Source: Flavobacteriales bacterium (GTDB lineage Bacteria > Bacteroidota > Bacteroidia > CAIKAF01). Taken from it: a stretch of DNA of 64,000 bases. Positions within the stretch are counted from its first letter, which is position 1. Each line of letters starts with the position of its first letter. A program made the translations under genes and the position numbers. The stretch spans positions 28,811 to 92,810 of the forward strand of contig JAOABX010000002.1 of the NCBI GenBank assembly GCA_026418175.1, read 5' to 3'. This document shows positions 53,472 to 56,030 of this stretch, one piece after another. Below the pieces are notes generated by a model that searched no databases, was not told the DNA's origin, and saw only the letters and a program-made list of their open reading frames with translations.

Positions 53472-55283
53472 ATGGCAAATCGTGAACAATGGGGAACGCG
53501 AATCGGGTTAGTGCTGGCTATGGCAGGAAATGCTGTTGGATTAGGAAATTTTTTGCGTTTCCCCGTACAAGCAGTGCAAAATGGGGGAGGAGCATTTATT
53601 ATTCCATACCTGGTTTGCTTTTTGTTAATGGGTATTCCCTTGTTATGGATTGAGTGGTCTATTGGTCGATTTGGCGGGCGCTCAAACAATCATTCTACGC
53701 CTTTCATCATGGATTCTATGGATAAACGTCATTTCTGGAAGTATGTGGGGGTTTTCGGTATATTTACCAATATCGGCGTTGCAGCATATTACTGTTATAT
53801 TGAATCTTGGACCATGAGTTATGTTTTTCACTCCATAATTCAAACGTTTACCGGAATGAGTCAAGATGAAGTAGCTTCATTTTTTGTAAAATATGTAGAT
53901 GTGGGCCAATCTACCACCGGAATCCCCTTTGAATCAGTTTTGTTTTACTTGATTTGTCTTGGATTAAATACATATATTTTATCTCGTGGATTGAGTGGTG
54001 GTGTAGAAAAAGTGGCGAAAATCGGAATGCCTCTCCTCATTTTATTTGGAATACTCTTGGCAGTAAGAGGAATTACATTAGGGAATACAGGCCTTTGTGC
54101 AGATTGTGATTCGCATATCGGAATGAATTTTCTCTGGGAACCTCAATTTGATAAATTATTAGACCTTAAAGTTTGGTTTGCAGCTGCTGGTCAAATTTTC
54201 TTTACCCTTTCGTTGGGAATGGGAACCATTCAGTGTTATGCTTCCTATGTTCGTTCTAAAGATGATATAGCTCTCAACGCCATGACTGCCGGCTGGATGA
54301 ACGGTTTTGTAGAAATTGTACTTGGCGCTTCAATCGTTATCCCAATTTCAGTAGGATATTTGGGATTAGATTGGGTAAAAGAAAATGCCGGTTTCTCTAT
54401 GGCTTTTCAAACCATGCCTTATTTGTTCAATCAATGGGGGGCATTTCTTGGAAGTTTTGCCGGTGTAATGTGGTTTGGATTACTTTTCTTTGCAGGAATT
54501 ACATCCTCACTGGCTATGGGCACCCCATGGATGGGATTTATGCAAGATGAATTCAGATGGAGTCGTCCTAAAGCTGCATTTACATTTGGTTTGTTAGTCT
54601 TAATCATGGGTTTGCCTACCGTGTTTTTCTTTCAGGAAGGTTTTTTTGATGAATACGATTATTGGGCCGGCACCGCTTCGTTGGTCATTTTTGCCACATT
54701 TGAAACCATTTTGTTTTCCTGGATTTTTGGAATAGAACGGGGATGGAAAGAATTGATTCAGGGTGCTGATATGAAAGTGCCTGTAATTTTTAAATACATT
54801 ATGGTGTTTATTACTCCATTATTTTTAATCATTATTCTTTTAGGTACTCTTATCACTCCAAAGAATGGAGATTGGCAAAAAGCGTTTACCGAAAAATATG
54901 AATTAGATCATGGAAGTTTAATTGGTAAACTAACCCATTCTAATATTGTAGCCAATCGAAGTTGGTTTTCAAATCGTTTCGAATCGGAAGTGAGTGGTAT
55001 TGTAATTAATGCCTACTCTGATCAAAAAAATCATTATGTCATAATCGGAGATGAAACCGGTCGTGTAGTTAAAACCTATGCTCAACCCATAACTAAAGAA
55101 ATGGTTGTGAATACGGGTGATAAAGTGGAAATTTCCACTCCGTTATTCAGAGGGCGTTTTGTAAACCCAATTTTTTATTTGGATTTATCTCGTATCATGT
55201 TGCTTTCACTATTCATTTTTATATGCGTATTGGTATATAAAGCGTATAAAAAACGTCAAAAAATAAATCGAATTCCGTTATGA
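53472..55283 (+). CDS. Sodium:neurotransmitter symporter (NSS) family transporter with inserted domain
   Basis: A 603-residue LeuT-fold sodium symporter. The substrate/Na+ site of helix 1 is clear (AGNAVGLGNFLRFP, 18-31). Twelve helices are expected. Between helix 11 (about 441-462) and helix 12 (about 570-590) lies a soluble insertion of about 100 residues (464-566) with beta-strand character (HYVIIGDETGRVVKTYAQ). Typical bacterial members are near 450-510 residues, so this is an addition. It overlaps a 42-residue membrane protein gene by 4 bp. An amino acid is the likely substrate. Confidence 0.92.
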   Translation: MANREQWGTRIGLVLAMAGNAVGLGNFLRFPVQAVQNGGGAFIIPYLVCFLLMGIPLLWIEWSIGRFGGRSNNHSTPFIMDSMDKRHFWKYVGVFGIFTNIGVAAYYCYIESWTMSYVFHSIIQTFTGMSQDEVASFFVKYVDVGQSTTGIPFESVLFYLICLGLNTYILSRGLSGGVEKVAKIGMPLLILFGILLAVRGITLGNTGLCADCDSHIGMNFLWEPQFDKLLDLKVWFAAAGQIFFTLSLGMGTIQCYASYVRSKDDIALNAMTAGWMNGFVEIVLGASIVIPISVGYLGLDWVKENAGFSMAFQTMPYLFNQWGAFLGSFAGVMWFGLLFFAGITSSLAMGTPWMGFMQDEFRWSRPKAAFTFGLLVLIMGLPTVFFFQEGFFDEYDYWAGTASLVIFATFETILFSWIFGIERGWKELIQGADMKVPVIFKYIMVFITPLFLIIILLGTLITPKNGDWQKAFTEKYELDHGSLIGKLTHSNIVANRSWFSNRFESEVSGIVINAYSDQKNHYVIIGDETGRVVKTYAQPITKEMVVNTGDKVEISTPLFRGRFVNPIFYLDLSRIMLLSLFIFICVLVYKAYKKRQKINRIPL

Positions 55284-55408
55284 CTACCGCAGCTTTAATA
55301 ACTATGATTACGGTACAGGCCCTGGTAACTATTATCAGTGGATATTTCTTTTGGAAAATCCTTACAGCCAAGCCCAAACCTGAACCTGATTCTTATTCAG
55401 AAGAATAA
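55280..55408 (+). CDS. MetS-like 42-residue membrane micro-subunit
   Basis: A small gene starting ATG at 55280 within the NSS stop (ATGA overlap) and ending TAA at 55406. It encodes 42 residues: a short N-terminus, one membrane helix (about 5-28, ALITMITVQALVTIISGYF), then KILTAKPKPEPDSYSEE. MetS-type small subunits directly follow NSS symporters such as MetP in Corynebacterium and are needed for transport. Position, size and topology match. Sequence identity cannot be judged at this size. A shorter family-typical start is not obvious. Confidence 0.72.
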   Translation: MTTAALITMITVQALVTIISGYFFWKILTAKPKPEPDSYSEE

Positions 55409-55418
55409 TTTACTTCTT

Positions 55419-56030
55419 ATGAAAATTATTTGTGTAGGAAGAAATTATGCGGAACATGCCCGTGAGCTAAATAATGAAGTTCCGGCCGATCCGGTGCTTT
55501 TTATGAAACCTGAAACGGCATTGATACTACCCCGCCAACCGTTTTTTTATCCCGATTTCTCAAAAGATATTCATCATGAAATAGAATTGGTGGTTCGTAT
55601 AAATCGCTTGGGTAAACACATTGAGCCCCAATTTGCTCATCGATATTATAACGAAGTTGCATTGGGAATAGATTTTACAGCCCGTGATATTCAACAACAA
55701 TTAAAAGCAAAAGGTCTTCCTTGGGAAAAAGCCAAGGCTTTTGATGGCTCAGCTTGTGTTGGTGAATGGATTTCAGTTGAAAAACTAGGAGATATTCAAA
55801 ATCTTAATTTTTATTTAACCCGAAACGGTGAAATCGTGCAATCTGGCAACACATCCCATATGTTATTTTCTGTGAACCATTTAATTAGCTACATATCTTC
55901 CTTTTTTACTTTAAAAATCGGCGATCTTATATTTACCGGAACTCCTTCTGGGGTGGGCCCTGTAAATATTAATGATACGTTGGAAGGCTATTTAGAAGGA
56001 AGAAAAAATTTTTCGCTACGCATCAAATAA
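55419..56030 (+). CDS. Fumarylacetoacetate hydrolase (FAH) family protein
   Basis: 203 residues from ATG at 55419 (MKIICVGRNYAEHARELNN), the family start; the ATG at 55338 would add 27 unrelated residues overlapping the micro-subunit gene. Metal-binding acidic residues sit in HHEIELVVRI and GIDFTARDIQQQLKAKGL, and the C-terminus has FTGTPSGVGPV. FAH-type enzymes act on 2-oxo or acylpyruvate substrates (acylpyruvase, oxaloacetate tautomerase). Size fits the small FAHD1-like group. It lies 10 bp after the micro-subunit gene. Confidence 0.9.
   Translation: MKIICVGRNYAEHARELNNEVPADPVLFMKPETALILPRQPFFYPDFSKDIHHEIELVVRINRLGKHIEPQFAHRYYNEVALGIDFTARDIQQQLKAKGLPWEKAKAFDGSACVGEWISVEKLGDIQNLNFYLTRNGEIVQSGNTSHMLFSVNHLISYISSFFTLKIGDLIFTGTPSGVGPVNINDTLEGYLEGRKNFSLRIK

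Follow-up and report, generated by a model that had tools for sequence, protein, structure and literature searches.

Directly behind a sodium symporter gene of a Flavobacteriales bacterium lies an open reading frame (ORF) encoding only 42 amino acids. Is this a real gene and, if so, is its product a partner of the symporter? The window, that is, the whole stretch of DNA analysed, covers 64,000 nucleotides (contig JAOABX010000002.1, positions 28,811 to 92,810 of the forward strand). An initial annotation had described the ORF as a small gene behind an NSS symporter, overlapping it at an ATGA, and had judged it too short for common gene callers and its place and size to fit a MetS-type subunit.

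The locus and its small gene

The features of the locus are as follows (coordinates are those of the window).

53472 to 55283, forward strand: NSS (SLC6-type) sodium symporter, 603 amino acids, placed in the LeuT subfamily and presumed to be the large subunit (Pfam SNF, 6.4e-52; phmmer, AlphaFold2 (AF2) and Foldseek)
55280 to 55283, forward strand: ATGA start/stop overlap of the transporter TGA with the small-gene ATG, with probable translational coupling (from the sequence)
55280 to 55408, forward strand: probable small-subunit gene, 42 amino acids, single helix (homologue in 101/101 loci; dN/dS 0.026; co-occurrence; AF2 helix 3-29)
55419 to 56030, forward strand: next gene, fumarylacetoacetate-hydrolase family, a neighbour outside the pair (Pfam FAA_hydrolase, 3.6e-53)

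The ORF is present as described, its ATG overlapping the TGA of the transporter gene, and its product is MTTAALITMITVQALVTIISGYFFWKILTAKPKPEPDSYSEE. AF2 predicts one helix (residues 3-29, mean pLDDT 88). No charged residue occurs before K26, at the end of the helix, which is followed by K31 and K33; the earlier description, a single helix in the membrane with a charged tail, was correct.

The ATG of the FAA_hydrolase-family gene (55419) is 10 nt past the small gene's stop, and the start of this protein adjoins the small gene likewise in four loci (L001-L004). A mechanical choice of start would give a GTG at 55338, which would overlap the small ORF. This is probably wrong, and ATG 55419 is the likely start, because L002-L004 keep that protein start beside their own small gene.

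Conservation and selection

The locus panel comprises 101 loci, including the window's own, with transporters that are >50% identical; several of these are one genome met twice, leaving 96 distinct pairs. Using an HMM built from 29 family members, all drawn from these loci, a homologous small ORF is found at the 3' end of the transporter gene in every one of the 101, mostly with the ATGA overlap. A search for short genes after NSS homologues had been suggested at the outset, with loss of the frame in relatives as the outcome that would speak against the gene. A homologue lies downstream, and the frame is kept, in all 101 loci.

A scan with a strict pattern recovers the small ORF in 100 of the 101 loci (95 unique pairs) and misses L017, where the copy lies 175 nt downstream of the transporter. 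A run of ATAGAAAATAGAAG-like repeats is present in L017 between the transporter stop and the small gene. Elsewhere among 8,602 ORFs the HMM provides no credible match (best E = 0.94); the one exception, in L069, is the small ORF itself read from an earlier start.

Among the unique pairs the small protein is 34 to 55 amino acids long, with alanine at residue 5 in 93/95 and methionine at residue 9 in 88/95. The four-base overlap (offset -4) is scored in 61/95, a count in which L067 is mis-scored, and a one-base overlap is found in 5. An SD-like stretch precedes the small-gene start in 40/95 pairs; none is obvious in the window.

Comparison of the window with its nearest relative (L002, transporter 94% identical) gives 14.0 synonymous and 2.0 non-synonymous changes in the small ORF (dN/dS 0.026). 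For L003 and L004, where dS is saturated, the dN values are 0.147 and 0.154, respectively. The ORF at 55280-55408 is a real protein gene under purifying selection, far beyond chance.

These values bear on the idea that the ORF is leader-like or acts in coupling, so that its translation matters (for mRNA stability or downstream coupling) and the peptide itself does not. The shortness of the ORF and its ATGA overlap speak for this. However, the amino-acid sequence, with its defined helix pattern, is kept although synonymous sites have changed extensively or to saturation.

Co-occurrence with the transporter

In a panel of 296 genomes from the phylum, transporters were accepted with E up to 1e-60 and the small gene was identified with a profile of the small protein (A3). 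The transporter occurs in 39 genomes, the small gene in 38 and both in 37. By search, the small gene is therefore found in 37 of the 39 transporter-positive genomes compared with 1 of the 257 that are transporter-negative, with absences softer than presences because at most 24 candidates were scored per genome. All three exceptions resolve on reading. The two genomes in which only the transporter had been detected (G064 and G136) have a linked, divergent small copy (A3 values of 2.5e-4 and 2.7e-5), while that with only a small gene (G347) carries a classical MetS beside a MetP-type NSS. For this type of small gene the counts therefore become 39/39 and 0/257, which supports the subunit reading of the initial annotation. 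They are not fully independent, since some of the loci used to build A3 and an earlier, narrower profile (A1) belong to panels that were counted later, and the Fisher value of 1.5e-43 overstates the evidence because the genomes are related. A1 itself gives matches in 23 of the 296 genomes. One of these, in G264, sits inside a frame of 494 amino acids and was taken as false.

In a survey of 395 genomes from the class, a stricter threshold for the transporter (E up to 1e-100) yielded 69 positive genomes. The small gene is linked in 65 of these, a contig end cuts one (G581) and three have no linked copy. The transporter of G581 is located at the contig end and no small-gene match was found in this 77% complete assembly. 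An unlinked copy, one match in each case, is seen in genomes without a linked one: G600 (1.6e-12), G409 (6.5e-10) and G461 (3.9e-5), of which the G461 match is weak and only partly family-like on reading.

The small gene was found in none of 19 genomes that do not have a close relative of the transporter (G057, discussed below, is not among these). Similarly, the downstream frames (up to 700 nt) of 13 other NSS loci (L021-L025, L027, L028, L163, L181, L182 and L184-L186) include no match to the small family; among these, L021 is an odd branch inside the clade and L027 has masked letters, while L026 is cut off. Classical MetS-type partners are present at L029, L112, L146-L152, L155, L179 and L180. 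The small-gene family tracks this transporter clade.

Unlinked, reversed and extra copies

Three genomes with related transporters illustrate how the linkage can change. Among themselves, those of G202, G270 and G206 share 68-77% identity (72% for G202 and 68% for G270 to that of G206), compared with about 48-50% to the transporter of the window. In G206 the small gene starts 284 nt downstream (its stop-to-stop frame starts from 272). In G202 and G270 it is unlinked and lies, in both, beside a phosphofructokinase-like gene (neighbour identified by reading). It is likewise unlinked in G163 and G316. In G127 (L298) the order is reversed, with the small gene just before the LeuT-type transporter gene.

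The small gene is mostly kept when it is no longer beside the transporter, and this argues for action in trans. Relatives of the small gene persist away from the transporter gene or in front of it, which is not expected of a leader peptide; together with the conservation of the peptide, this makes a leader or coupling ORF extremely unlikely.

Some genomes carry extra unlinked copies in addition to the linked one: G308 (two), G238, G304, G128, G278 and G075. Such copies are located at L140:9204-9335(-), L141:4336-4443(+), L143:4749-4853(+), L145:4343-4450(-), L308, L309 and L300. Their partners are perhaps other transporters. They count against a simple one-to-one pairing, and could be expected of a free-standing small membrane protein with a role of its own (for example, a protease adaptor or a regulator of several transporters) which merely travels with the symporter. 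We consider this decidedly unlikely, given that the small gene co-occurs with one transporter clade, is linked to it in nearly all transporter-positive genomes of the class and is absent from the 19 genomes without a close relative.

Relation to MetS

MetS is the small subunit of the methionine/alanine importer MetPS and is represented by Pfam PF16951 (MaAIMP_sms) and by NCBIfam NF033493 (MetS_like_NSS) and NF033494. The source for MetPS is Trotschel 2008, as cited in the accessible part of PMC3219685. The small protein of the window matches neither NF033493 nor PF16951 and lies below the curated cut-off. Its relatives come somewhat closer: weak matches to NF033493 are seen for 8 of the 29 A1 members (best 1.1e-3) and matches to PF16951 for 3 (best 0.056), while 5 of the 29 A3 members match NF033493 (best 0.012) and one matches NF033494 (0.039).

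For a more sensitive comparison we used a set of ten MetS-type proteins (A2). This includes seven Bacteroidota matches to NF033493 (four above the cut-off), the protein of L029 and two from annotated plasmids, where NCBI-derived annotation names MetS-type partners of 36 and 38 amino acids. With hhalign, the family profile matches A2 at 95-96% probability in an alignment that is gap-free from the start codon. A local profile run gives a probability of 83-91% and scores of 35.9 (A1, at 83%) and 40.4 (A3). In a control of 200 column shuffles, with the first column kept, the maxima were 21.0 (A1) and 28.9 (A3), and none of the 200 reached the score in either case. A further control, 95 windows of the transporter alignment, scored no more than 8.2 (compared with 35.9). 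The one-helix family FixS, represented by the 13 of 20 loci that could be parsed by motif, scored 15.2 (A1) and 11.5 (A3). Since the profile score exceeds the shuffle, transporter-window and FixS controls, the small protein is a remote relative of MetS; it is not a member by the curated test.

The resemblance extends to general organisation. Like MetS, the protein has one short hydrophobic helix in its N-terminal region followed by basic residues, and its gene lies directly behind an NSS gene, with which it is paired (101/101 loci and 65/69 genomes of the class). Unlike MetS, the small family closes its helix with a YFFxKVL-type sequence and often carries an acidic EPDS tail (60/95 unique pairs), and the window transporter shares only about 27% identity with L146 and L155, the two Bacteroidota NSS of MetS type used for comparison. 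A WGG motif at positions 17-19 occurs in nine of the ten A2 rows, with IGG in the tenth; the window protein has TII there. In L133/L267, AWGG is found about four residues earlier. The initial assignment as a MetS-type NSS partner therefore holds for the pairing and, through the controlled profile-profile comparison, for a remote homology, but the protein falls below the curated MetS cut-offs.

Other database searches were uninformative. Neither Pfam nor NCBIfam provides a usable name for the small protein of the window. A match to F0F1 subunit A (E 0.02) and scattered matches of its relatives to other single-helix families (down to 8.3e-4) were set aside as chance similarities between hydrophobic helices. 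Comparison of the A1 profile with PDB chains revealed no credible relative (best E 1.3, unrelated). Close relatives of the transporter were not found on plasmids (0 of 81 records with 80% coverage).

The transporter and LeuT

The window transporter is most similar to LeuT. In phmmer, LeuT (2a65) is matched at 8.2e-116 (391 bits), and the next protein, 4us3, which we take to be MhsT, at 139 bits. The AF2 model has a mean pLDDT of 85.6 and its top Foldseek matches are again LeuT. Assuming the residue numbers and the sodium-site and pocket roles that we take for LeuT, the window protein has the same residues at the sodium-site positions (G19, A21, V22, N26, T245, N277, A341, T344 and S345), and its E281 is the counterpart of LeuT E290. 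Two pocket positions differ (F259 of LeuT is M250 and I359 is M349). By these sequence features the transporter is assigned to the LeuT subfamily, and its LeuT-like site makes neutral amino acids the likely substrates.

A tree of 47 NSS separates a clade of 28 rows, comprising LeuT and the transporters with a small gene, from the other 19 at 100/100. Identity between LeuT of Aquifex aeolicus and the clade members shown, one row in every six, is about 41-51%, whereas for the other NSS shown it does not exceed 35%. Within the clade LeuT is placed near L265-L269 (90/93, not starred). Its nearest neighbour by path is L268 of G202; in BLAST the two share 55% identity (there under the handle L153, which denotes this gene as well). 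A small gene is also present in Acetoanaerobium (L183), which branches off first within the clade as drawn.

Of the 27 other rows in the clade, 26 have a small gene, either linked or unlinked. The exception is L021 (G057), which has a very long branch and an odd composition, with no small gene linked or elsewhere in the genome. This is possibly a case of loss accompanied by fast evolution. It contradicts a universal pairing rule, unless the tree has misplaced it.

We know of no partner of LeuT. Among the matches listed in the open-licence literature, no paper concerns a small partner of a Bacteroidota NSS or of LeuT, and the accessible parts of PMC5105988 and PMC9973317 contain nothing on a partner; the main text of PMC4227106 likewise gave no matching passage. 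Because of its placement in the tree, LeuT is bracketed by relatives that have a partner, and in its closest relatives a subunit would be missed because the gene is unlinked in some of them. LeuT may thus have an overlooked native subunit. A broader proposal is that the whole LeuT subfamily is a two-subunit system and that A. aeolicus would encode a homologous one-helix subunit, either linked or unlinked; this we hold tentatively, at a little short of an even chance. Both this connection with LeuT and what the unlinked copies show go beyond the initial annotation, which did not notice that the transporter belongs to the LeuT subfamily.

Proposed role and implications

Taken as a whole, the results point to the small gene encoding an accessory subunit of the LeuT-type sodium/amino-acid symporter just upstream, a reading to which we assign a probability of about 0.86. 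Re-initiation at the ATGA overlap would couple synthesis of the small protein to that of the transporter. The small protein would insert in the inner membrane as one helix (N-out/C-in), with its lysine-rich, then acidic tail in the cytoplasm. It would then pack against the transporter in the membrane and could support its stability, assembly or turnover. A supporting role of this kind is reported for MAP17, the small membrane partner of SGLT2, which is likewise a symporter of the LeuT fold.

MAP17 is larger than the small protein of the window. According to PMC9616851, SGLT2 requires it as an auxiliary component and is contacted by it at M13. The SGLT2-MAP17 and SGLT1-MAP17 pairs resemble that of the window in that a small accessory protein of the membrane joins a sodium symporter of the LeuT fold. 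Unlike the window pair, SGLT2-MAP17 is eukaryotic and of the SSS family, and comparison of the A1 profile with PDB chains gave no credible sign of homology.

Crystals of LeuT have been obtained many times and are not known to have contained a partner, so a partner is not strictly needed for its folding or for substrate binding. This would also be compatible with a small protein that inhibits the symporter or regulates it negatively in place of supporting it, and small single-helix inhibitors of membrane transporters do exist. Nothing here favours inhibition above support, however, and we regard an inhibitor as unlikely.

LeuT, usually studied alone, is the textbook model for the structure of those SLC6 transporters on which antidepressants and stimulants act. 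If an accessory subunit is the correct reading and the LeuT subfamily natively uses a one-helix subunit, models of turnover, oligomeric state and regulation would need a missing part. If A. aeolicus has one, two decades of LeuT biophysics would have used a transporter without its native subunit, which may determine how fast the transporter works, how its second site behaves or how stable it is. As a small bacterial system that is easily co-expressed, the pair would provide a direct test bed for single-helix control of a LeuT-fold transporter. In addition, with a profile of the A3 type, many short genes that follow LeuT-type transporters and escape the MetS models would receive a name.

A predicted beta domain in the transporter

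The length of the transporter varies from 504 to 671 amino acids among the unique pairs. That of the window differs from LeuT in having a predicted beta domain before its last helix.

54966 to 55163, forward strand: predicted five-strand beta domain, transporter residues 499-564 (AF2 secondary structure)

Searches of Pfam with this domain gave no match over the cut-off, with weak barrel-sandwich hints in L034. The domain lies between transporter helices 439-460 and 566-598, has a block pLDDT of 94-97 (residues 501-570) and, from the NSS topology, would be located on the outer side.
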